Positions 2,058 through 51,046 of a DNA stretch of 58,981 bases are shown here, piece by piece. The stretch is from Bacteroidales bacterium. Its GTDB lineage: Bacteria; Bacteroidota; Bacteroidia; Bacteroidales; UBA932. Location: positions 1 through 58,981 of the forward strand of contig JAEFAI010000015.1 of the NCBI GenBank assembly GCA_016291185.1, given 5' to 3'. Made by a program: the position numbers and the translations under genes. Every line of letters starts with the position of its first letter. Within the stretch, counting starts at the first letter, position 1. The notes beneath the pieces were generated by a model. That model saw only the letters and a list, made by a program, of their open reading frames with translations. It was not told the DNA's origin and did not search any database.

Positions 2058-2981
2058 ATGAGAAGGACCCTACGTTCCCTGCTCTGCATCCTCGGATGTT
2101 GCCTGCTGCAGTCCATCGCACTCGCGCAGCCGCTGGATTTCTCCTACGAGAAGCGCCATATTTATGTGTCGTCCACCATCAACGGGAAGGATGCCCGCCT
2201 GGTCTTCGATTCCGGTTCATCCTACGTGTGCCTGGACAGCACCTTCCTCGCCGAAAGCGGACTCAGCTATGCCCAGCGCGGCAAAGCGATGATGAAAGGC
2301 TCCGGAAACGGAATGCAAACGGCCGATATCATTTTCTCCGGCGTTTCCGTCTCGCTGGGCGGGAATACCTTCGAGCCCGCGCCGGTGCCCATCATCGACC
2401 TGCGCGCCATCCTGAAGAACCCGGCCGACGGCATCTTCGGCATGGGCGACGTAAAGGACAAGGTGATCAGCATCGACTATCCGAACCGGAAAATCGCTTT
2501 CCTGGACGAGCTGGCACCCGGCATGACGGACGGCTACACGCAAGTTCCCATCGAATACGACCCCTCGCACCCCTGGCGGGCCATGTTCCCGCTGGAAGTG
2601 GTACTTACGTCCGGGACCGTCATTTCCGGCCAAGGAGTCATCGACACCGGCGCCGGCCAGGGCATTGAGTTCACCAGCAAGGCAGCGGCGAAATACCACC
2701 TGGATCAGCTGGAAGACCGGAAAGCCTATCAAATGGAGGTCGGCGGAATCGGTGGCGCTGCCACCGGATATGACTTCACCATTTCGGAAGCCCGGATTGG
2801 CGGCGTGACGATTCCCCTAACCGAGGCCGGCTACAGCACAAACGAGAGCGGAGCCCTCGCCAGCGATGCGTATATCGCCCTCGTCGGCAACGACGTCTGG
2901 GTGCACCTCGCCATCATCCTCGACCTGAAGGCGAAGAGGTTGTACCTTAGACGAGATTCTCCGGTCGGAGCCGGCGAATGA
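2058..2981 (+). CDS. Retropepsin-like aspartyl protease, secreted
   Basis: The 307-residue product has a signal peptide (to about ALAQ, residue 24) and two aspartyl-protease active-site motifs, DSGSS at 51-55 and DTGAG at 196-200, so both lobes are present as in the Bacteroidetes clan-AA 'aspartyl protease family' proteins. Each lobe carries the expected beta-rich segments (FGMGDVKDK, VIGG-like GGIGG). It probably cleaves peptides in the periplasm; the substrate is unknown. The last residues (DSPVGAGE) and the stop codon lie inside a palindromic repeat (2955-2983), so the original C terminus may have been replaced or extended. It follows the TPR gene by 3 bases. Confidence 0.75.
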   Translation: MRRTLRSLLCILGCCLLQSIALAQPLDFSYEKRHIYVSSTINGKDARLVFDSGSSYVCLDSTFLAESGLSYAQRGKAMMKGSGNGMQTADIIFSGVSVSLGGNTFEPAPVPIIDLRAILKNPADGIFGMGDVKDKVISIDYPNRKIAFLDELAPGMTDGYTQVPIEYDPSHPWRAMFPLEVVLTSGTVISGQGVIDTGAGQGIEFTSKAAAKYHLDQLEDRKAYQMEVGGIGGAATGYDFTISEARIGGVTIPLTEAGYSTNESGALASDAYIALVGNDVWVHLAIILDLKAKRLYLRRDSPVGAGE

Positions 2982-2983
2982 CG
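2955..2983. repeat. Palindromic repeat at the 3' end of a gene (copy A)
   Basis: An imperfect palindrome with arms ATTCTCCGG and CCGGCGAAT (one mismatch), followed by GACG. It matches the intergenic and intragenic copies at 41229-41256, 44366-44393, 46549-46614 and 50232-50255 in having a GATTC..CCGG left arm and CCGG..AATGACG right end. The TGA in AATGACG is the stop codon of the retropepsin-like gene. Confidence 0.65.
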
Positions 2984-39000: not shown

Positions 39001-40596
39001 TCGCCGGACGAGATCATCCCCTACAGCGATGACCTGCGCATCGACGATGCCTGTGCCCGCCTGGGGCTCACCGGCGTCACCTACACCATCAGCGGCCCGC
39101 TCCGGGTGGACCAGAACGGCGTCTATATGGACCGCGTTGCCATTCTGGACGACGACAGCGGCAGCATGATCGTCGATGGCGCCCTGCGCTACCAGCATCT
39201 GAAAGATTTCAATGTCGATGGCCATGTGCAACTCAGCAACATCAAGGTTCTGGATGCACCGGAGCGGCCTGGCATCTCTTACTATGGCTTCCTGCGCGCT
39301 TCCGGTACGGCCAATGCCCGCGGTCCGCTGACGGCGCTCAACGTGGATGCGGACGTCAGCACCTCCGGCGTCGGCGAAGTGCACATCGCCCCGTCCGCCA
39401 GCGCCGCCTCCTCGTCAAGCAGCAGCCACAAACTGCTGACCTTCACGGAACCGGGCCGGGAGATGGACCCGTACGAAGAAATGCTGGCCAGCCTCAAGAA
39501 GAAGGAAGTCACGCCTTCGGATATCACCATCCACGGACGCGTGAACATCCAGCCGAGCGTCAACGCCTTCGTGGAAATCGACAAGGAAGCCGGCAACGTG
39601 GCCTCCGTCAACGGTCAAGGCACCGTGAGCCTCACCCTGCGCCCGTCCAGGGCTATTTTCGACTTGAACGGCGACTACAACATCAGCGAAGGAACTTACC
39701 AGTTCGTCCTGCCGGGCCTGTTGTCCAAGAACTTTACCGTCCAGCGCGGCAGCTCCGTCAAGTTCAACGGCGACGTGATGAATACCGAGCTCGACATCAA
39801 TGCAACTTACGGCCTGCGTGCCTCGCTCGACCCGATGCTGGGCACGGGCAACCTCTCCCGCCGACCGGTCAATTGCGTCATCAATGTGGGCGACCGCCTG
39901 CGCGCGCCCAAACTCAACCTTTCGATCGACGTGCCGGACCTCGATCCGACCACACGCATGGCTGTCGAGTCGGCCCTGAGCACGAGCGACAAGGTCCAGA
40001 AGCAGTTCGTATCCCTGCTGCTGCTCGGCACCTTCCTGCCCGACGAGAACTCCGGCGTCTTCAACCAGACCGCCCTGCTCTACTCCAATGTGATGGAGAT
40101 CATGTCCGGCCAGCTGAACAATATCCTCCAGCGTTTCAAGATTCCTGTTGACGTGGGCTTCGGCTACCAGGAGATGCGCACGGGCGAGAACCTCTTCGAC
40201 ATTTCGGTGTCCACCGAGCTCTTCGACAACCGCGTCATCCTCAGCGGCAACTTCGGTAACCGCCAGTATTCGACCGGTAGCGCCGGAGGCGACTTCTCCG
40301 GCGATGTCGATCTGCAGGTCAAGCTCGACGAGGAGGGTAAATTCCGCTTCAACGTCTTCTCCCATTCCGCCGACGAATTCACGAGCTACCTCGACTTCTC
40401 GCAGCGGAACGGTATCGGCGTCAGCTTCCAGAAAGAATACAAGTCCTTTGCGGACTTCGCCCGCAATCTGTTCATTCCCAAGAGGAACCGCCAGCAGCTC
40501 GACTCGCTGGAAGCGGAGAAGTTCGCCAAGCAAGTCATTATCCAGATAGAAGATGAATCCGGGGAAACTGTATCTGATCCCAACGCCGCTCGGTGA
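36013..40596 (+). CDS. tamB: TamB-type translocation/assembly or lipid-transport protein
   Basis: A very long (1527-residue) protein with an N-terminal membrane anchor (about 8-27, IVARIVGLLAVLLMAFLVAI) and a repetitive beta-rich body typical of AsmA/TamB-type bridges. The C-terminal about 400 residues contain the TamB/DUF490 domain (RPSRAIFDLNGDYNISEGTYQF, NFTVQRGSSVKFNGD, TRMAVESALSTSDKVQKQFVSLLLLG). These proteins span the periplasm and carry lipids or assist outer-membrane protein assembly. A Ser-rich linker (SASAASSSSSSH) sits at about 1130-1141. No tamA gene is adjacent. The 3' end overlaps the RsmI-like gene by 44 bases. Confidence 0.9.
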   Translation: MYRKKGYIVARIVGLLAVLLMAFLVAIQTPLVQTRLSKVALNQLVAIMDGRVQYDELKVMTSGVIVVRNLKLIDTHPYTEDINKRGWAPADTVAQIKTLTATFGLSGLFRKEGLHMGRVTIEGGSFHLVSEPGEEYHDNLSRIFHLKPTDQPPSRDPLFDIKKLRVKDFRFQINSFLPDRGTYKGFGINFDDLDITLDFTAYKFALVDAKIRGDIERLSAREKSGYVIENLTSSCAFGFVDGALFEDFVLCDAWSDIRFRSLALKYESTKDFSDFVNLVPLEGDFQRSRCALQTLAYFSGSFIDSPTIAEVRRGHVSGPVCDMNIERLVFSETHSGVSSTLSAHIAGLPDIQEAALDAQLQDLTGTTTGFSRFLGGLAPDKPAPDFSSIAHNIPLTLQVVAKGPFNNLDLDIQTQSPSGSFNLTGSIRNAVDPLRPIDLALNLATHELDLGDILGVDMLGTTTLRTRVHAILANGGGLPDATLDSLYIDRIHALGQDIHNIRVIGSLHDDTAAGRIQSNDPLLRLDLTGLLDLKPKNGRARYRVDGQIAEANLAAFGINAGGKLSRVATGLHADLVRLGERFDGSFLMEGARLMDKEGTHQLGDIQVNARTDGDWQEIHFDAPFLEARFRGDRPVTSFARDLQEITLRRDLYALYTDTHEPSGCGNYTLDAIFHDTRALMAIFAPGAYIADNTSLTLSTTDQDRLDGRISSDRIAFNKNYLRNVNLLFDNRNGALLGSIVSSELRAGTLAMLNPAITLGADDNRLSLGVHYDNFSGTGGEASINLEGRMYRDEQDGELVIQAHPVGSYIMTGEDTWTFAPADIIKHGQDIRLDHFLISNGSQQLLVDGGFSPVHSDTLSLHMDRFDLALVNEFLPAQFSLQGLMNGQAIVASGPDKAFGMLMDFRLDTLRFSGVDVGNMTLSSQLQNEGKEIGISLHDNIDGRDALRVGGSYFLQEKRLDIQAGLDRFPLAVASAFMPDIVTDLGGGISGTLSVTGSPDEIIPYSDDLRIDDACARLGLTGVTYTISGPLRVDQNGVYMDRVAILDDDSGSMIVDGALRYQHLKDFNVDGHVQLSNIKVLDAPERPGISYYGFLRASGTANARGPLTALNVDADVSTSGVGEVHIAPSASAASSSSSSHKLLTFTEPGREMDPYEEMLASLKKKEVTPSDITIHGRVNIQPSVNAFVEIDKEAGNVASVNGQGTVSLTLRPSRAIFDLNGDYNISEGTYQFVLPGLLSKNFTVQRGSSVKFNGDVMNTELDINATYGLRASLDPMLGTGNLSRRPVNCVINVGDRLRAPKLNLSIDVPDLDPTTRMAVESALSTSDKVQKQFVSLLLLGTFLPDENSGVFNQTALLYSNVMEIMSGQLNNILQRFKIPVDVGFGYQEMRTGENLFDISVSTELFDNRVILSGNFGNRQYSTGSAGGDFSGDVDLQVKLDEEGKFRFNVFSHSADEFTSYLDFSQRNGIGVSFQKEYKSFADFARNLFIPKRNRQQLDSLEAEKFAKQVIIQIEDESGETVSDPNAAR

Positions 40597-41296
40597 CACC
40601 GAGCCGGCCGCGTGCCTGCCGCAGAGCGTCCTGGAGACGGCCTGCGGCCTGCATTGTTTTGTCGTCGAGGAGCTCCGAACCGCCCGACGCTTCCTGTCCC
40701 GCTACGGCTTGCGCGGCCATATTGACGAGCTGGATCTGCACGAACTCAATGAGCACACCACCCCGGCCGAAGTGGAGGCCCTGCTGCCCCTCTTCGACGG
40801 GCAGGACGTCGGCCTGATGTCCGAAGCGGGCCTGCCGGCCGTGGCCGATCCAGGCGCCGCCCTTGTGGCCCTGTGCCACCGCCACGGCATCGAAGTCGTC
40901 CCCCTGGTGGGCCCTTCCTCGCTGATGCTTGCCCTGATGGCCTCCGGCTTGAACGGCCAGTCCTTCGCCTTCCGCGGCTACATCCCGGCCAAGACCGACG
41001 AACGCCGCGCAGCGCTCAAGGAGCTGGAGAAGCAGTCCCGCGCCCTGAAGCAGAGCCAGATCCTCATCGAGACGCCCTATCGCAACGATGCGCTGCTCGC
41101 CGACATGCTGCAGATTCTCTCCCCTTCCACGCAGCTTTGCGTGGCGGCCGACATCACCCTCCCGACGCAGTTCATCCAGACGAAAAGCATTGCCGCCTGG
41201 CGCAAATCGTCATTTGCCGGCTCTTCTTCGTCATTCGCCGGCTTGACCGGCGAATCTATCGGCAAGCGCCCCTGCGTCTTCATCCTCCTCGCCTAA
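40553..41296 (+). CDS. RsmI-like SAM-dependent methyltransferase carrying a palindromic insertion
   Basis: The 247-residue protein resembles tetrapyrrole-methylase-type RsmI relatives: KLYLIPTPLGDTE at the N terminus, VGLMSEAGLPAVADPGAALV and VVPLVGPSSLMLALMASG in the SAM-binding core. It is likely an rRNA (ribose-cytidine) methyltransferase relative rather than RsmI itself. Near the C terminus the peptide SSFAGSSSSFAGLTGES (about residues 219-235), encoded by a repeat (41208-41256), separates IAAWRK from KRPCVFILLA, which are adjacent or nearly so in relatives. The start overlaps tamB by 44 bases, and mtaB follows by 3 bases. Confidence 0.85.
   Translation: MNPGKLYLIPTPLGDTEPAACLPQSVLETACGLHCFVVEELRTARRFLSRYGLRGHIDELDLHELNEHTTPAEVEALLPLFDGQDVGLMSEAGLPAVADPGAALVALCHRHGIEVVPLVGPSSLMLALMASGLNGQSFAFRGYIPAKTDERRAALKELEKQSRALKQSQILIETPYRNDALLADMLQILSPSTQLCVAADITLPTQFIQTKSIAAWRKSSFAGSSSSFAGLTGESIGKRPCVFILLA
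41208..41256. repeat. Half-plus-full palindromic repeat inside the RsmI-like gene (copy B)
   Basis: A 21-base half unit (41208-41228, CGTCATTTGCCGGC then CTTCTT-type spacer) is followed by a 28-base palindrome (41229-41256) that begins CGTCATTCGCCGGC and ends GCCGG-type arm ACCGGCGAATC. The 28 bases are identical to 44366-44393 in thiL, and the half-plus-full layout is also the same. Read in frame it gives SSFAG and SSFAGLTGES. Confidence 0.8.
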
Positions 41297-41299
41297 GCC

Positions 41300-42553
41300 A
41301 TGAAAATCGCACTGCTGACCCTGGGCTGCAAGCTCAATTTCGCCGAGACGGCCACCTACGAACGCGGCTTTATCGCCGCGGGGCTGGAGGTCGTGCCCTG
41401 GGGGCAGGCGGCGGACGTGTGCCTGATCAATACCTGCTCGGTCACCGCGACGGCAGACAGCAAGTCCCGCAACCTGGTGCGCAAAATGCACCGCCTCCAC
41501 CCGCAGGCACGCATCATCGTGACCGGCTGCAGCGCCGAGCTGCGCCGCGCCGAGATCGAGCGGATCGAAGGCGTCTCGCGCGTGTTCGGCGCGAAGGAAA
41601 AAGGCCTCGTGGTCGCCGAGACGCTGGCGCTGCTGGGCATCGAAGCCCCTGCCGCGCTGCCGTCGGCATCGACCGTTTTCAGCGCATTTTCAGCCGCTGA
41701 ATCCCGCACCCGCGCCTTCTTAAAGGTTCAAGACGGATGCAATAATTATTGTAAGTATTGCACGGTCCCCTACGCCCGGGGCGAGAGCCGCAACCTGCCC
41801 ATCGCCGAGTGCGTGCGCAACGCCGAGAAGATTGCCGCCCAGGGCGTGCGCGAAATCGTGCTCACGGGCGTGAACACGGGCGATTTTGGCCGGACGACCG
41901 GCGAATCGTTCCTCGACCTGCTGAAGGCGCTGAACGAAGTCGAAGGCATCGAGCGCTACCGCATTTCGAGCATCGAGCCCAACCTCCTGACGGAGGAAAT
42001 CGTGGACTGGATTGCGTCCGGAACCAAGTTCCAGCCGCATTTCCACATCCCCCTGCAGACCGGCGCCGACGCCCTGCTAGAGCGTATGGGACGCCACTAC
42101 GACACCGCCTTTTTCGCGGAGCGCCTCGAAATGATCCGCCGCAAGATGGAGCGTCCGGGCACGCCGAAGGTCTTCTTCGGCATCGACGTGATGGTCGGCC
42201 TGCCCGGCGAGACGCAGGAGCTCTTCAAGCAGACCTTCAACTTCATCGAGCGCGTTCATCCGGCCTTCATCCATGTGTTCCCCTACTCCCGCCGTCCCGG
42301 CACGCCCGCCGCGGACATGCCCGGCCAGGTGGATGAAGCCACCAAGAAGCACCGCGTGGCCGTCCTGGAAGAGCTCTGCCGCAAGCTGCACGCGGATTTC
42401 CGCACACAGAACCGCGGCGAGCACGAGCGCGTGCTCTGGGAGTCCACCGTCCACGACGGGATGATGGAAGGCTATACCGGCAACTACATCCGCATTTCGC
42501 GCCCCTACGCCCCGGCGCTCGTCGGCACGCTGACGGATATTGTAATAGATTGA
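41300..42553 (+). CDS. mtaB: tRNA t6A methylthiotransferase MtaB
   Basis: A 417-residue radical SAM methylthiotransferase. The N-terminal UPF0004 domain has Cys in TLGCKLN, INTCSVT and VTGCSAE; the radical SAM cluster is QDGCNNYCKYCTVPYARG. A C-terminal TRAM-like segment follows. CKLNFAE in place of the MiaB CQMN form identifies the MtaB branch, which converts t6A37 to ms2t6A37 in tRNA. This fits with tsaD nearby. It starts 3 bases after the RsmI-like gene and is followed by an MBL hydrolase after 2 bases. Confidence 0.93.
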   Translation: MKIALLTLGCKLNFAETATYERGFIAAGLEVVPWGQAADVCLINTCSVTATADSKSRNLVRKMHRLHPQARIIVTGCSAELRRAEIERIEGVSRVFGAKEKGLVVAETLALLGIEAPAALPSASTVFSAFSAAESRTRAFLKVQDGCNNYCKYCTVPYARGESRNLPIAECVRNAEKIAAQGVREIVLTGVNTGDFGRTTGESFLDLLKALNEVEGIERYRISSIEPNLLTEEIVDWIASGTKFQPHFHIPLQTGADALLERMGRHYDTAFFAERLEMIRRKMERPGTPKVFFGIDVMVGLPGETQELFKQTFNFIERVHPAFIHVFPYSRRPGTPAADMPGQVDEATKKHRVAVLEELCRKLHADFRTQNRGEHERVLWESTVHDGMMEGYTGNYIRISRPYAPALVGTLTDIVID

Positions 42554-42555
42554 TT

Positions 42556-43422
42556 ATGGAGCAGAAAGCAAAACTGACCTTTCTTGGCACCGGCACTTCC
42601 TCGGGCGTCCCGATGATCGCCTGCGACTGCGAAGTGTGCCGTTCGGCCGACCCGCGCGACAAGCGCCAGCGCGCCTCGGCCCTGGTCGAGTACGGCGGTC
42701 TGACGATCCTCGTGGACGCCGGCCCGGACTTCCGCGCCCAGATGCTGCGTCACAACGTGCATCACCTGGACGCCATCCTCCTGACACACAACCACAAAGA
42801 CCATACAGGCGGGCTCGACGACATCCGCGCGTTCAACCTCGCGGAGCGCCACCCCGTCAACATCTGGTGCGAGCCTTACGTGGAGAACACGCTCCGCCGC
42901 GAGTACGGCTACGCCTTCGCGGAGGAGAAATATCCCGGCGCTCCGGAATGGCACGTACACAACATCGACCCGTCCCGGCCTTTCACCGTGCATTCCAATG
43001 CGAATGAGGAAATCCTGGAGTGGGAGCGCGGCTTCGGCTACCACCACCTGCCGCCGCACCCGGCCCCGGACGCCACCGTCGAGGTGGTCCCGATTCACGG
43101 CTGGCACCATCTCGAGAAAAAGATTTCCGTGCTGGGCTACCGCTTCGGCAACATCGCCTACCTGACCGACATCAAGATGCTGGACAGCGACGCGGAACTG
43201 GAGAAACTGCGCGGTGTGGAGTATGTCACGCTCGGCTGTGTCAAGATCGATCCGCACCGCTCCCATCCCTCCCTGCAGGAGTGCCTGGATTTCTTCGAGA
43301 AAGTAGGCGCGAAAGAGTCCTACATCACCCACATGTCCCACCTGCTGCCCCGCCACGAGGCCTTTGCGGCCATGCTTCCTCCGCATGTCCACCCGGCCTA
43401 CGACGGGCTGGTCATTGAATAG
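42556..43422 (+). CDS. PhnP-like metallo-beta-lactamase-fold hydrolase
   Basis: The ATG at 42556 gives 288 residues (a TTG two codons up is less likely). It starts KLTFLGTGTSSGVPMIAC with the CDCEVCRS cysteine pair typical of PhnP-type phosphodiesterases, then the metal-binding motif LTHNHKDHTGGLDD and later His/Asp ligands (HGWHH, YLTDIKML, HMSHLLPRHE). It probably hydrolyses a cyclic phosphodiester or related ester in the cytoplasm. It is set in a tight operon between mtaB and thiL, with 6 bases to thiL. Confidence 0.88.
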   Translation: MEQKAKLTFLGTGTSSGVPMIACDCEVCRSADPRDKRQRASALVEYGGLTILVDAGPDFRAQMLRHNVHHLDAILLTHNHKDHTGGLDDIRAFNLAERHPVNIWCEPYVENTLRREYGYAFAEEKYPGAPEWHVHNIDPSRPFTVHSNANEEILEWERGFGYHHLPPHPAPDATVEVVPIHGWHHLEKKISVLGYRFGNIAYLTDIKMLDSDAELEKLRGVEYVTLGCVKIDPHRSHPSLQECLDFFEKVGAKESYITHMSHLLPRHEAFAAMLPPHVHPAYDGLVIE

Positions 43423-43428
43423 CGCGCC

Positions 43429-44463
43429 ATGGGAATGAAGCTTTCGGAACTCGGCGAATTCGGCCTGATTGAGCGCATCCAGGCGCGTTTCCGCACCCCC
43501 GACGGGGTGACGGGCATCGGCGACGATTGCGCCGTGCTGCCCCAGAACACCGGGCGCAACACCCTCGTCAGTACCGATATGCTCGTCGAGGGGACACATT
43601 TCCTGCGCAACGACATCCCGCCCTACGACCTGGGCTGGAAGTCCGCCGCCGTCAACCTCAGCGACGTGGCGGCGATGGGCGGAAAGCCCACAGGTACCTT
43701 CCTCTCCCTCGCGCTGCCCGCCGACCTGGACACGGACTGGATCGACGCCTTCATGCACGGCTATGCCGACCTCTCCGAGCGCTTCGGAACTCCCCTGCTC
43801 GGCGGCGACACCACCGCCTCGCCCGACCGGATCTGCATCAATGTGACCGTGTTGGGAGAATGCCCTTACGCGCGCGCCCGGCTGCGCAACGCCGCCCAGA
43901 AAGGCGATGTCATCTGCGTAACGGGCCCGCTGGGCGACTCCGCCGCCGGCCTGAAAGCCATCCTGGAAGGGGTGGAACGCGATCTGGAGATTCAGCGTCT
44001 GATTGACAGGCATTATCGCCCGATCCCGCGTGTGAGGGAAGGCGAAGAACTTCGTCTGAATCTGGGTGTACACGCTATGATGGACATCTCCGACGGGCTC
44101 GCCTCCGACCTCAACCACATCCTGAACGCTTCCGAGGTCGGCGCCCAGATCAACGTTGCGGACATCCCGATGTCCATCGCGCTCAAGCACTGCTGCCAGC
44201 GCTTCGGCTGGGACCCGCTTGAGCTCGCCGTCAGCGGCGGAGAAGACTACGAGCTCCTCTTCACCTGCACCCCGCAGGCCGAAGCGCTCCTCACCCTCCC
44301 GCACTTCGTCATCGGCAGAATAACGCCATCCACCGGCTATAGTTCGTCATCCTCCGGCACCAATTCGTCATTCGCCGGCTTGACCGGCGAATCCCGCATC
44401 ACCTGGCTCGGCACCTCCTCCCCCCTCGCCCCAGGCTTCGATCATTTCAAGAAGGGCAAGTGA
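43429..44463 (+). CDS. thiL: Thiamine-monophosphate kinase with a palindromic insertion
   Basis: A 344-residue kinase with ThiL motifs: GIGDDCAVL near residue 26, STDMLVEGTHF, DLGWKSAAVNLSDVAAMGG, MMDISDGLASDLNHI and VSGGEDYELLFT. It phosphorylates thiamine monophosphate to thiamine diphosphate. The segment SSSSSGTNSSFAGLTGES (about 305-322), encoded by a repeat at 44345-44393, sits between VIGRITP and ITWLG, and the C-terminal LAPGFDHF still matches the family's G[WF][ND]HF end. So the insertion is inside the protein rather than at its end. It closes the tamB-thiL operon. Confidence 0.93.
   Translation: MGMKLSELGEFGLIERIQARFRTPDGVTGIGDDCAVLPQNTGRNTLVSTDMLVEGTHFLRNDIPPYDLGWKSAAVNLSDVAAMGGKPTGTFLSLALPADLDTDWIDAFMHGYADLSERFGTPLLGGDTTASPDRICINVTVLGECPYARARLRNAAQKGDVICVTGPLGDSAAGLKAILEGVERDLEIQRLIDRHYRPIPRVREGEELRLNLGVHAMMDISDGLASDLNHILNASEVGAQINVADIPMSIALKHCCQRFGWDPLELAVSGGEDYELLFTCTPQAEALLTLPHFVIGRITPSTGYSSSSSGTNSSFAGLTGESRITWLGTSSPLAPGFDHFKKGK
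44345..44393. repeat. Half-plus-full palindromic repeat inside thiL (copy C)
   Basis: A 21-base half unit starting CGTCATCCTCCGGC (44345-44365) is followed by a 28-base palindrome (44366-44393) identical to the one in the RsmI-like gene. It is read in the same frame, giving SSFAGLTGES again. Confidence 0.8.
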
Positions 44464-46548: not shown

Positions 46549-46614
46549 AATTCGCCGGCTGTGGGGCCGGCGAATTATGTTTGGTATGAGATGCCCGATC
46601 AGGTCGGGCATGAC
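46549..46614. repeat. Two adjacent intergenic palindromes (copies D and E)
   Basis: Copy D (46549-46576) has perfect 11-bp arms AATTCGCCGGC / GCCGGCGAATT. Copy E (46590-46614) has arms ATGCCCGA / TCGGGCAT and ends ATGACG. Both match the family found in the coding regions, in the same GATxC..GxATGACG design. They lie just after the glmS stop, where they may also end transcription. Confidence 0.7.
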
Positions 46615-46624
46615 GTGCGGTAGA

Positions 46625-48469
46625 TTACTCCACCGTGACGGACTTGGCAAGGTTGCGGGGCTGGTCGACGTCGCGGCCTTTGGCGATGGCGATGTGATAG
46701 GCCAGCAACTGGAGCGGAATGATGGAGAGGATGGGCTCGAAGCATTCCTCCGTGTCCGGGATCTCGAAGGTCCAGTCGGACAGCGCCTTGACGTCGGTAT
46801 CCCCTTCCGTGACCACGCTGATAATCCGGCCCTTACGGGCCTTGACCTCCTGGATATTGGAGAGAATCTTCTCGTAATTGCCGCGGCGCGGCGCGATCAC
46901 AACCACCGGCATCTCCTCGTCGATCAAGGCGATCGGGCCGTGCTTCATCTCGGCAGCCGGGTAGCCTTCGGCGTGGATGTAAGAGATCTCCTTGAGTTTC
47001 AGCGCACCCTCCAGGGCCACCGGATAGTTGTAGCCGCGACCCAGATAGAGGAAATTGCGCGTATAGGTGAAGACCTTTGCCAGGTCGGCAATCTGCTCGT
47101 CGTGCTCGAGGATCTTGGCGATCTTGTCAGGAATGATCTGCAGCTCCTGCACCAGGGCGGCGCGGCGCTCATTGGAGACGGTACCGAGCTGCTCGGCGAG
47201 GCTCAGCGCGAGCAGGAAGAGCGTCGTCACCTGGGCGGTAAATGCCTTCGTGGAAGCAACGCCGATCTCCGGGCCAATGTGCGTATAACAGCCGGTGTCC
47301 GTGGCGCGGGCAATGGAAGAGCCCACCACGTTGCAGATGCCAAAGAGGAAAGCGCCAGCCTCGCGGGCCAGGTTCACGGCGGCCAGCGTGTCGGCCGTCT
47401 CGCCGGACTGGGAGATGGCGATCACGACATCCGTCGGGAAGATAACAGGACGACGATAGCGGAACTCGGACGCGTATTCGACCTCAACGGGTTTACGCGT
47501 CAGCTCCTCGATCATGTATTTGCCGATCAGGCCGGCGTGCCAGGAAGTACCGCAGGCGCAGATGACGAAGCGCTTGGCGTTCAGCAGGCGCTCCCGGTTG
47601 TCGATGACGCCGGATAGCTTGACCTCGCCGAGCTCCGGATGCAGACGGCCCTGCATGGAGGCACGCAGGGTGCGCGGCTGCTCGAAGATCTCCTTCAGCA
47701 TGAAATGCGGGAAACCGCCCTTCTCGATCTCGCTCAGGCTCAGTTCCAGCTCCCGGACCTCAGGCGTCTGCTCGACGCTGCGCAGGTCCGTAATGCGAAG
47801 CTCCTCGCCGCGCTGGATGTAGGCGATCTGCTCCTCCCCCAGGTAAACGACCTTGTTGGTGTATTCGATGATCGGAGAGGCGTCGGAGCCGACGAAATAC
47901 TCCCCTTCCCCCACGCCAATGATGAGCGGACTGCCCTTGCGGGCGGCGATCAACTTATCCGGCTGGTTCTTGTCCATGATGACGAGCGCATAGGCACCGA
48001 CGACGTGTTTAAGCGCCATCGGGACGGCCTTGTCGAAGGAAGCCTTGCGCGAATCCATCATATACTGGATGAGCTGGATGACCACCTCCGTGTCCGTCTG
48101 GGACTGGAAATGGTAACCCTTGCGGGTGAGCTCCGTCTTCAGGGCCTGGTAGTTCTCGATGATACCGTTGTGGATCAGGGCGAGCTGGTGGTTCTCGGAA
48201 TAATGGGGATGCGAATTGACGTCGCTCGGCTCGCCGTGCGTCGCCCAGCGGGTGTGGGCAATGCCGATGCTGCCGGACACGTTCTTATCCGCCGCCACGG
48301 CCTCCAGGTCCTTGACCTTGCCCTTGGTCTTATAGACGACCAGGTCGCCGCCGTCGTTAATCAACGCCACACCGGCGCTGTCATATCCCCGGTACTCGAG
48401 CCGGGTCAGTCCCTTGATCAGGATCGGGTAGGCCTGCCGCCCACCGACATATCCAACGATACCACACAT
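46625..48469 (-). CDS. glmS: Glutamine-fructose-6-phosphate aminotransferase (isomerizing)
   Basis: A 614-residue enzyme, full length. Cys2 after Met (CGIVGYVGG) is the glutaminase nucleophile of the class II amidotransferase half; HTRWATHGEPSDVNSHPH is the glutamine site. Two SIS domains form the isomerase half (VIAISQSGETADTLAAVN; GRGYNYPVALEGALKLKEISYIHAEGY), and the C terminus PRNLAKSVTVE is family-typical. It makes glucosamine-6-phosphate for cell wall and LPS. It is the last gene of a minus-strand block of glutamine-using enzymes. Confidence 0.97.
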   Translation of the reverse strand: MCGIVGYVGGRQAYPILIKGLTRLEYRGYDSAGVALINDGGDLVVYKTKGKVKDLEAVAADKNVSGSIGIAHTRWATHGEPSDVNSHPHYSENHQLALIHNGIIENYQALKTELTRKGYHFQSQTDTEVVIQLIQYMMDSRKASFDKAVPMALKHVVGAYALVIMDKNQPDKLIAARKGSPLIIGVGEGEYFVGSDASPIIEYTNKVVYLGEEQIAYIQRGEELRITDLRSVEQTPEVRELELSLSEIEKGGFPHFMLKEIFEQPRTLRASMQGRLHPELGEVKLSGVIDNRERLLNAKRFVICACGTSWHAGLIGKYMIEELTRKPVEVEYASEFRYRRPVIFPTDVVIAISQSGETADTLAAVNLAREAGAFLFGICNVVGSSIARATDTGCYTHIGPEIGVASTKAFTAQVTTLFLLALSLAEQLGTVSNERRAALVQELQIIPDKIAKILEHDEQIADLAKVFTYTRNFLYLGRGYNYPVALEGALKLKEISYIHAEGYPAAEMKHGPIALIDEEMPVVVIAPRRGNYEKILSNIQEVKARKGRIISVVTEGDTDVKALSDWTFEIPDTEECFEPILSIIPLQLLAYHIAIAKGRDVDQPRNLAKSVTVE

Positions 48470-48521: not shown

Positions 48522-50189
48522 TCAATAGGCCTGCTCATGCACGCCCGCCACGGCGCGGCCGCTGGGGTCGTTCTTCCCCTTGAAGGCGGCGTCCCACTCG
48601 AGCGCGATGGCCGTCGAGCAGGCCACGCTGGCCTCGCTGGGCACGGCACGGCCCGCGCTCTCGCTCGGGAAGAGCTCCGCGAAAATCGAACGGTAGTAGT
48701 ATTCCTCCTTGCACTGCGGCGGATGCACCGGAAATCGCTCCGCTGCGTGCGCCATCTGCTCGTCGGTAACGGCCTCGGATGTGAGCTGCTTGAGCGTGTC
48801 GATCCAGGAATAGCCCACGCCGTCGCTGAACTGCTCCTTCTGCCGCCAGGCCACCTCCTCCGGCAACATGTCGGCGAAAGCCTCACGCACGATCTTCTTC
48901 TCGATGGTCGTGCCCGGGCACATCTTCGCCTCGGGATTCAGGCGCATTGCCACATCCAGGAACTCCTTGTCCAGGAAAGGCACGCGACCTTCAACGCCCC
49001 AGGCGGAAAGACTCTTGTTGGCGCGCAGGCAGTCGTAGAGATGCAACTTGGAGAGCTTGCGGACCGTCTCCTCGTGGAAGGCGCGCGCATCGGGAGCCTT
49101 GTGGAAATAAAGATAGCCGCCGAAGATCTCGTCAGCGCCTTCGCCGGAAAGCACCATCTTGATACCCATCGACTTGATCACGCGCGCCAGCAGGTACATC
49201 GGCGTAGAGGCGCGGATGGTCGTGACATCGTAGGTCTCCGTGTAGTAAATCACATCGCGGATGGCGTCCAGGCCTTCCTGAATGGTGTAGTTGATCTCAT
49301 GGTGAACGGTGCCGATGTGCTCGGCCACCCGGCGCGCCTTCTCCAGGTCGGGTGCGCCCTTCAGGCCCACGGCGAAGGAGTGCAGGCGCGGCCACCAGGC
49401 CCGCGTCTTGGAATCGTCCTCGATGCGCATGGCGCTGTACTGCTCGGCAATCGCCGAAATGACAGAAGAATCCAGACCGCCGGAAAGCAGCACGCCGTAA
49501 GGCACGTCGGACATCAGCTGCCGCTTCACGGCATCCATCAGCGCCTCGCGCACGGCAAGGGCAGAAGCCGGGCCGTCCTTGACGGCCTCGTAGTCCATCC
49601 AGTCGCGCGTGTACCAGCGCTTCACGCCCGGCTCACGGCTCCAATAGAGGTGACCCGGCAGGAAGGGCTCGTAGCGCTCGCACTGCCCTTCCAGGGCCTT
49701 CAACTCGCTGGCCACATAGACCTTGCCGTCGGCGTCGTCGAAACCGATGTAGAGCGGAATCACGCCGATGGGGTCGCGGGCGATCAGGAAGGCATCCTTC
49801 TCCACGTCGTAGAGCGCGAAGGCAAAGATGCCGCTGAGATCCTCCAGGAAATCTGGCCCTTTATCGCGGTAAAGGGCCAGAATCACTTCACAGTCGCTCC
49901 CTGTCTGGAAATCGTATTTCCCGGCGTAACGGCGGCGGATCTCCTGGTGATTATAGATCTCGCCGTTCACGGCCAGCACCAGCTTCCCGTCCGGGGAGAT
50001 CAGGGGCTGTCCGCCCGATTTGGGGTCCACGATGCTCAGGCGCTCGTGGCAGAGGATGGCGCTTCCGCCACACCAGATGCCGCTCCAGTCCGGTCCGCGA
50101 TGGCGGATCCTGCGACTCATCTCCAGGGCCTTCCGACGCAGCGCGTCAGACTGCTCCTTGACATTGAAAATACCGATTATTCCACACAT
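48522..50189 (-). CDS. asnB: Asparagine synthase B (glutamine-hydrolysing)
   Basis: A 555-residue enzyme. Cys2 (MCGIIGIFNV) is the glutaminase nucleophile; RIRHRGPDWSG and LAVNGEIYNHQEIR fit the N-terminal glutaminase. The C-terminal synthetase domain has the ATP-pyrophosphatase motif LLSGGLDSSVISAIA and SGEGADEIFGGYLYFHKAP. It makes asparagine from aspartate and glutamine. Length equals AsnB of E. coli. It lies in the nitrogen block between the porin and glmS. A palindromic repeat is in its upstream gap. Confidence 0.97.
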   Translation of the reverse strand: MCGIIGIFNVKEQSDALRRKALEMSRRIRHRGPDWSGIWCGGSAILCHERLSIVDPKSGGQPLISPDGKLVLAVNGEIYNHQEIRRRYAGKYDFQTGSDCEVILALYRDKGPDFLEDLSGIFAFALYDVEKDAFLIARDPIGVIPLYIGFDDADGKVYVASELKALEGQCERYEPFLPGHLYWSREPGVKRWYTRDWMDYEAVKDGPASALAVREALMDAVKRQLMSDVPYGVLLSGGLDSSVISAIAEQYSAMRIEDDSKTRAWWPRLHSFAVGLKGAPDLEKARRVAEHIGTVHHEINYTIQEGLDAIRDVIYYTETYDVTTIRASTPMYLLARVIKSMGIKMVLSGEGADEIFGGYLYFHKAPDARAFHEETVRKLSKLHLYDCLRANKSLSAWGVEGRVPFLDKEFLDVAMRLNPEAKMCPGTTIEKKIVREAFADMLPEEVAWRQKEQFSDGVGYSWIDTLKQLTSEAVTDEQMAHAAERFPVHPPQCKEEYYYRSIFAELFPSESAGRAVPSEASVACSTAIALEWDAAFKGKNDPSGRAVAGVHEQAY

Positions 50190-50212: not shown

Positions 50213-50260
50213 GGATATTCCGGGGCAAACCGAGATTCCGGGTCAAACCCGGAATGACGA
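50213..50260. repeat. Intergenic palindromic repeat with half unit (copy F)
   Basis: A half unit GATATTCCGGGGCAAACC is followed by a full palindrome with arms ATTCCGGGT / ACCCGGAAT ending ATGACG (50234-50255). It has the same half-plus-full design as the copies in coding regions, here between asnB and the porin gene. Confidence 0.65.
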
Positions 50261-50296: not shown

Positions 50297-51013
50297 CTAC
50301 GGCTGCAGCGTAAAGCCGATCACGAAGAAAGCCTCCCGGGTGTACGGGTTGGCGGCCACCTGCGCGAAGACGGGGATGGAGAAGCTGTCCGTGACGGCGA
50401 TCTCCTTCGACGCGGTCAGCGAGAGGTTGACCAGCGCGAATTTCTCCGTACCGTAGAAATCCGTAGGGAACGGGACCACGCCGACGGCAGCCGACCAGTC
50501 CGCTCCGCCCAGGGTGAACGGGGCGCTGAGTTCCAGGTAGCTGCTGAAAGCGCGCTTGCCTGCGGGGTTCACGCCGTCGTTGCCGGCGAAATTGGTGTAC
50601 CACTGGATGGCGGCAAAGCCGAAATCATAGCCAATGTTGGCTTCGAAGACGTGGTTCGTGCAGTCGGAGCGATACATGAAGTAGCGGTCCAGCGGGTCCA
50701 GGCCCGCATCGAACCAATAATCCGTCACGCCGATGTTGAAACCACCGATCGTGTAGCTGAGCGTCAGGTCAAACTCCTTCGTGTCGGCCGGATTGGAAAT
50801 GCCGACCGAGCCCCAGGCCGACAGGCTCAGGCCCTTCCAGTCCAGGCCGAGCGTCGGCTGGAAAGACACGCCGCCCAGGTCCAGGCCACGCCAGATGTAG
50901 CGACTGACGAAATCAGCGCCGACGGAGGCTTCCAGCTTGTCCTGTGCCTTGGCCGGAGCCAAGGCAGTCAGAGACAAGACAGCAATAGAGAGTATGGTAA
51001 ATATCTTTTTCAT
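50297..51013 (-). CDS. TorF-type putative porin next to the ammonium transporter
   Basis: The ATG at 51013 gives 238 residues with a signal peptide (KKIFTILSIAVLSLTALAPAKAQ). The first mature motif VGADFVSRYIWRGLDLGG is typical of the Gcw_chp/TorF porin family, followed by beta-strand patterns to a C-terminal FVIGFTLQP. It is an outer-membrane channel; the position directly after amt suggests entry of small nitrogen compounds, which is inference. Same strand, 34 bases after amt. Confidence 0.8.
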   Translation of the reverse strand: MKKIFTILSIAVLSLTALAPAKAQDKLEASVGADFVSRYIWRGLDLGGVSFQPTLGLDWKGLSLSAWGSVGISNPADTKEFDLTLSYTIGGFNIGVTDYWFDAGLDPLDRYFMYRSDCTNHVFEANIGYDFGFAAIQWYTNFAGNDGVNPAGKRAFSSYLELSAPFTLGGADWSAAVGVVPFPTDFYGTEKFALVNLSLTASKEIAVTDSFSIPVFAQVAANPYTREAFFVIGFTLQP

Positions 51014-51046
51014 AAGGCAATACATTTTGACAGTTGAACAAATGAA

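Follow-up and report, generated by a model that had tools for sequence, protein, structure and literature searches.

The 58,981-nucleotide stretch analysed here in its entirety (contig JAEFAI010000015.1 of a Bacteroidales bacterium, hereafter the window) carries the same 28-bp palindrome in frame in two genes, one encoding an RsmI-like methyltransferase and the other, thiL, encoding thiamine-phosphate kinase. By its sequence, the palindrome is a member of the CGTC-tagged superfamily of repetitive extragenic palindromic (REP) sequences, and comparison with other genomes suggests that a small nuclease moves along with this family of hairpins. The best overall explanation, to which we give a probability of about 0.7, is that the CGTC REPs are the non-autonomous termini of a very small GIY-YIG mobile unit. 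A wider proposal, for which we put the odds only slightly above even, is that the CGTC palindromes of several phyla are the ends and the offspring of an unrecognised minimal element, whose sole gene would code for a GIY-YIG nuclease of about 100 residues and which would home into REPs or REP-like sites, seeding and swapping in-frame peptide modules in housekeeping proteins.

An in-frame palindrome in the RsmI-like gene and thiL

The two genes and their repeats are positioned in the window as follows.
40553..41296, + strand: gene for an RsmI-like 16S rRNA methyltransferase of 247 residues (TIGR00096, PF00590), with an insertion near the C terminus
41208..41228, + strand: degenerate 21-bp half unit in the RsmI-like gene, read as SSFAGSS
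41229..41256, + strand: complete 28-bp CGTC-type REP in the RsmI-like gene, read as SSFAGLTGES
43429..44463, + strand: thiL, gene for a thiamine-phosphate kinase of 344 residues (TIGR01379, 8e-97), with the second in-frame insertion
44345..44365, + strand: degenerate 21-bp half unit in thiL, read as SSSSGTN
44366..44393, + strand: complete 28-bp CGTC-type REP in thiL, of the same sequence as the copy in the RsmI-like gene

The RsmI-like protein matched PF00590 and also TIGR00096, the latter with an E-value of 8.1e-35, under the curated cut-off of the model. The palindrome, CGTCATTCGCCGGCTTGACCGGCGAATC, occurs exactly twice in the window; a third copy was not found there at up to three mismatches, and 100 dinucleotide shuffles returned none. 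It is made of the CGTC tag, a 9-bp stem (ATTCGCCGG / CCGGCGAAT) and the 5-nt loop CTTGA. The original prediction, drawn from the window alone, had described an identical palindrome in both genes, each time after a 21-bp half unit and in the frame giving SSFAGLTGES, and these coordinates and frames were confirmed. It had also placed the repeat inside both proteins instead of at their ends, in agreement with the resumption of family-typical sequence after the element. Alignment to homologues supported an insertion in both cases: the RsmI homologue P0004 (89% identity) is empty and has WRKAPAAVGKRPCVF at the site, and the ThiL homologue L169 (87% identity over the matched part) is empty as well. 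Against a plain insertion, the insert replaces about 4 native residues in RsmI and 7 in ThiL. As judged from these alignments, the 28-mer has entered both proteins in frame, close to the C terminus and at a point where near homologues show a short stretch of variable sequence; it is probably translated there as a Ser/Gly-rich linker.

The CGTC-tagged REP superfamily was described in 2013 by Di Nocera et al. (PMC3733652). In the part of that paper available to us, these REPs are defined by an unpaired CGTC (or TGTC, CCTC) tag at one end, an 8-9 bp stem starting with AT, a 4-5 nt loop, an unpaired tail that is mostly CCA and a high copy number in the genome, and their families 3-4 have a 9-bp stem and a 5-nt loop as in the 28-mer of the window. 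The 28-mer fits this superfamily by its CGTC tag at one end, its AT-starting 9-bp stem and its 5-nt loop, which bears out the REP-like design that had been proposed for it. Judged by eye and uncounted, its tails are of CA/CC type in many clostridial copies and mostly TC/TCC in Bacteroidales. According to the same part of PMC3733652, some CGTC REP copies lie in frame inside genes, the R. conorii elements RPE-4 and RPE-6 are equated with CGTC REPs, the dRS3 repeats of Neisseria gonorrhoeae are CGTC-1 REPs, and the spread of the superfamily is left open, no transposase having been found. The parallel drawn earlier with Rickettsia palindromic elements is strengthened by that equation. The original prediction cited no description in Bacteroidales; PMC3733652 already includes CGTC repeats from Bacteroidetes. 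Tag, AT stem start, 9-bp stem, 5-nt loop and the presence of some in-frame copies within genes are common to our repeats and to dRS3 or RPE-4/RPE-6 as presented there.

The exact 28-mer was detected in 96 stretches of GTDB r220 genomes, 68 from Bacteroidales/Bacteroidia (70 copies), 22 from Clostridia (29 copies) and 6 from Alphaproteobacteria (6 copies). At up to three mismatches, 15 element-bearing genomes contain from 1 to 128 copies each, and the reversed control pattern gave 0 in all 15. Variants such as CGCCGACTTGATCGGCG preserve the stem through paired changes. In a Clostridiales Family XIII locus (L079, 4446-5116), seven exact 28-mers follow one another in one orientation over about 670 bp, with degenerate units between them.

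GIY-YIG genes between inverted REPs

Open reading frames (ORFs) situated at up to 700 bp from copies were clustered with no candidate preset, and several clusters tied at the top with three loci each. Among these, just one cluster, that of a short GIY-YIG gene, crossed phyla (L002 and L096 are alphaproteobacterial, L035 is from Bacteroidales). Searches with PF01541 then provided 64 distinct short GIY-YIG genes, 63 of which had usable flanks. The subfamily was delimited by a hidden Markov model trained on genes found with a regular expression, not on their flanks, with a threshold of 95 that was set after the first run and reused for new loci. CGTC REPs under a strict definition were present on both sides of 21 of the 63 genes, with the tags outward in 17 of those; under a relaxed definition, which proved less sensitive than hoped, 16/63 were bracketed in the expected orientation versus 0/858 control windows. 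These counts, and those of the inverted match score that follow, are slightly low, as L226, of which only a partial domain was kept, was dropped from them. An inverted match score of at least 18 across the gene was reached by 24/63 genes (20/47 in the subfamily and 4/16 outside it, the latter with untagged ends) and by 0/626 control windows of the same spacing. None of 28 UvrC loci had a REP nearby.

The two ends of a bracketed gene resemble each other: for 16 left-right pairs the mean similarity was 0.935 versus 0.644 after permutation (0/2000), eight pairs being identical except for the first base, and the spacing between REP and gene is similar in most bracketed genes. A REP-GIY-YIG-inverted REP architecture with matching inverted ends is present in part of one subfamily. 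No such GIY-YIG gene between inverted copies appears in the part of PMC3733652 available to us. With seeds picked post hoc, a single repeat type was found to the left and right of 45/58 genes versus 16/492 control windows. At new loci, the fixed score was passed by 4/10 subfamily genes, 1/36 other short GIY-YIG genes and 0/481 control windows. All 26 clostridial genes among these new loci failed it (25 outside the subfamily and 1 inside); the 25 may be UPF0213-type genes. In the first set of 63, a Clostridiales locus (L202 of G005) is bracketed.

Twelve of the 33 plasmid-collection records with a nuclease match were also examined, with windows of 250/300 bp, a shorter seed and no control. This wider score was passed by eight of the 12 named records, including Neisseria gonorrhoeae, Shinella, Sinorhizobium meliloti, Azospirillum lipoferum and Novosphingobium aromaticivorans, and the other four have nearby palindromes by eye only. 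In Azospirillum lipoferum, a REP-GIY-YIG-REP unit, whose ends are approximate, lies between sufB and sufC. It is absent from this position in four relatives (A. ramasamyi, A. oryzae, strain B510 and A. argentinense), revealing a presence/absence polymorphism. No usable empty site came out of searches with the flanks of L295 and L298. The boundaries of the Shinella site were too diverged to be read.

When REP type was placed on a tree of 45 nucleases, 13 changes were needed versus a mean of 31.3 after shuffling (0/200 as low); this tree rests on few columns and many of its forks are open. Across 58 nucleases, conservation of the GIY-YIG motif residues is 95-100%. Pfam analysis of the L203 nuclease highlighted GIY-YIG and T5orf172 only, and the scan found no NUMOD domain or other DNA-binding module. 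A weak match to the UPF0213 protein BH0048 (E 1.1e-5) was also obtained. The GIY-YIG domain and its conserved residues are shared with GIY-YIG homing endonucleases and UPF0213-type proteins (PDB 1zg2), whereas the gene described here is flanked by REPs, not located in an intron or intein, and no NUMOD was found in its L203 product.

Two other readings were discarded. The L203 protein had no PADLOC match, which led us to set aside a defence gene, and a viral origin was rejected on the basis of 0 exact 28-mers in viral contigs and 0 nuclease matches in phage records. Five GIY-YIG genes outside the subfamily (L199, L235, L241, L265 and L314) lie between GAGCTTGTCGAA-like palindromes that lack the CGTC tag. 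These might represent another class of REP, served by a GIY-YIG clade of its own.

Insertion hotspots, reading frames and half units

To read the RsmI site in relatives, 151 genomes were drawn from the genus of G001 and the 30 best loci were kept, 29 of them readable (L158 was unreadable). Three relatives carry an insert and 26 are empty. At 93% identity, L139 has a TGTCATCCTGAG-type REP that differs from the one in the window, and at 92% identity L140 has two REPs, first one of CGTCATTCCGGG type in reverse and then a variant 28-mer; L141, from the same group of 90-93% identity, has nothing. In L147 (78% identity) the position is occupied by a different repeat, CCCCCGGACCCCCT-like by eye, so CGTC REPs are not the only occupants of this site. 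A CCCCCGGACCCCCT-like repeat, again by eye, is present in the L011 and L040 genomes too. Among RsmI homologues (the best 120 of 8000 scored), 8-9 residues stand at the insertion point in 98 and 13-29 residues in 22; the longer versions include SSFAGLTGES, NSHSGLEPES, CHPEHSEGS, SSHSGLDPES and VISSEAEKS types, not all 22 being recognisable REPs. For the ThiL site, 30 loci were compared: L169 is empty, L170 contains two other REPs and L175 one.

Since relatives carry other REP families or nothing at these places, both insertion points are regarded as hotspots, and on alignment evidence the same positions in RsmI and ThiL have been taken up repeatedly by REPs of different families. PMC3733652 gives one comparable same-site example, the recB gene of two Xanthomonas species. 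In P0003, P0011, P0012, P0016 and the RsmI-like protein of the window, the layout of a half unit plus a full unit is constant and the REP type varies (FAG versus HSG), as if half and full unit had been swapped together. This turnover points to mobile hairpins repeatedly editing conserved coding sequence in frame, and it may account for peptides that recur, CHPEPVEGS and SSHSGLDPES for example. The resemblance to Rickettsia palindromic elements lies in the short in-frame module within conserved genes; the hosts are different, and here several families share one host site and have a candidate nuclease partner.

The position of copies inside or between genes was assessed by a codon-usage test on 72 exact copies from the Bacteroidales loci and the window. 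Twenty-seven of them are intragenic, read in the frames SFAGLTGES (15), DSPVKPAND (10), IRRSSRRMT (2) and VIRRLDRRI (0), so that almost only two of the four open frames are used (25 versus 2, p=5.6e-6); some of these copies form homologous pairs (L024/L092 and L043/L093) and are not independent. Half units are spaced by multiples of three in 19/19 intragenic steps versus 15/36 other steps, a result softened by the test itself, which demands an open frame and excludes frame-breaking arrays by construction. A half unit of the same orientation is found within 120 bp on the 5' side of 23/70 Bacteroidales copies and on the 3' side of 1/70. Of the 25 host proteins not belonging to the window, 20 were scanned with Pfam. 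Copies are inside the domains of MnmE (residue 351 within 124-459), MetH (1056 within 946-1187), a PrmC-like methyltransferase (120 within 68-171) and a Major Facilitator Superfamily (MFS) transporter (200 within 17-367), and two others lie in the linker between sigma-70 regions 2 and 4. The L085 host protein gave no Pfam match.

Compared with the part of PMC3733652 available to us, the REP-bracketed stand-alone GIY-YIG subfamily, the hotspot nature of both insertion points, and the preference for two frames together with the multiple-of-three half-unit steps are new; half-unit arrays, and same-site turnover beyond the recB case, are without description there. Our literature search found no text joining 'GIY-YIG' with 'repetitive extragenic palindromic', subscription papers and preprints being outside its reach and a prior description possible, and among the matches listed no title or start of abstract links GIY-YIG to REPs. 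Word searches within three papers showed no such link either: 'palindrom' and 'COG2827' are absent from PMC1564403, 'GIY' and 'nuclease' from PMC12306157, and 'nuclease' from PMC10969869.

The proposed element and competing explanations

The proposed unit would consist of a CGTC REP, a GIY-YIG gene of roughly 100 codons and an inverted CGTC REP, with the tags facing outward. The nuclease would recognise its own type of REP hairpin and cut at or beside existing REPs or REP-like sites, and repair would copy REP sequence into the cut. Such cutting and copying should leave REPs adjoining REPs, one-sided half-unit arrays and the replacement of one REP family by another at one site, besides solitary REPs, presumably mobilised in this way by the nuclease, and inverted dimers without the gene. 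Inside genes, only in-frame outcomes with polar peptides would survive. Because a nuclease gene is bracketed by REPs whose type follows its phylogeny, the spread of CGTC REPs becomes directly testable and, if the proposal is true, the nuclease would represent a second, unrelated solution to the RAYT/REPIN lifestyle.

Several points weigh against this proposal. Nuclease cutting and REP movement are inferred by us from sequence comparison. No such GIY-YIG gene is found within the window, the nearest genome found (G003) has only UvrC among its GIY-YIG matches, and the copy of G001 is truncated, which means that a resident nuclease is not needed now. Within the subfamily, strict REPs are missing from both sides of 24/47 genes, and 27/47 fall short of the inverted match score, which is passed by the 4/16 untagged genes outside it; the wider score is failed by 4/12 named records. 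The 45/58 count was obtained with seeds picked after seeing the data, and 16/492 control windows also pass. Finally, two separate nuclease clades use an identical 28-mer, and two Y1 genes (L101 and G007:C27) are situated about 700 bp from a REP.

Another possibility, which we hold to be rather unlikely, is that the GIY-YIG gene is a guest homing endonuclease invading pre-existing REPs that spread otherwise. GIY-YIG enzymes are known as homing nucleases, according to PMC1564403; taken together, the 15 genomes contain more REPs than short GIY-YIG genes, and the use of the same 28-mer by two clades is compatible with such a guest. The left and right ends nevertheless match and follow the nuclease phylogeny, and the REP-gene spacing is similar in most bracketed genes, so that a co-evolving unit fits better than repeated invasion.

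Mobilisation by a RAYT-like Y1 transposase (HUH), of the kind that serves GTAG REPs and REPINs, was suspected in the original prediction and appears improbable. In its favour, 10/11 Bacteroidales genomes searched gave divergent matches to Y1, with E-values up to 0.001 and open frames of 270-399 residues, and of the two Y1 genes close to a copy, the L101 protein displays, by eye, an HYH motif and a tyrosine motif. The tag of the 28-mer is however CGTC and not GTAG, G005 has 128 copies and yet no PF01797 match, and a REP is present at 2/12 Y1 loci and as terminal inverted repeats at 0/12. After the PF01797 search of 15 genomes and the REP check at these 12 loci, RAYT/Y1 was rejected as the main partner, the data pointing to the small GIY-YIG nuclease. 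REPINs and RAYTs share with the proposed unit a small nuclease gene between inverted REPs and solitary REPs that outnumber the nuclease genes; they differ by an HUH fold and a GTAG tag where a GIY-YIG fold and a CGTC tag are found here. At L101 and G007:C27 (L059), a one-sided half-unit array and a full 28-mer stand beside the divergent Y1 gene with shared flanking sequence, possibly one orthologous association.

The retention of REPs for a host benefit (RNA hairpin, attenuation or linker peptide), their spread being incidental, has a very small probability in our opinion. An element can supply a stop codon, as at 2955-2983 of the window, and many copies are not intragenic; on the other hand, relatives that are 87-93% identical differ in presence and type at the same site, and a conserved function would not predict such variation. 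Most of the compared genomes are metagenome assemblies, but an assembly or chance artefact behind the two copies is already refuted by near-identical insert-bearing proteins in separate clusters (P0001-P0002 and P0121-P0123), by the shuffles (0) and by the reversed pattern (0 in 15 genomes).

Beyond the two in-frame copies, the window contains three other REPs, which the original prediction had missed.
2955..2983, - strand: variant copy (29 bp) of the 28-mer, placed where the aspartyl-protease-like ORF 2058-2981 (PF13650) has its 3' end
46590..46615, - strand: CGTC-type REP whose stem belongs to a different family, immediately 3' to ORF 46625-48469 (- strand)
50234..50259, - strand: CGTC-type REP with a ATTCCGGG stem, between ORFs 48522-50189 and 50297-51025

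The first of them provides the TGA stop codon of ORF 2058-2981 and hence a REP-encoded C-terminal tail. As the last two, both of them intergenic, have other stems, at least three REP stem families are present in the 59-kb window.

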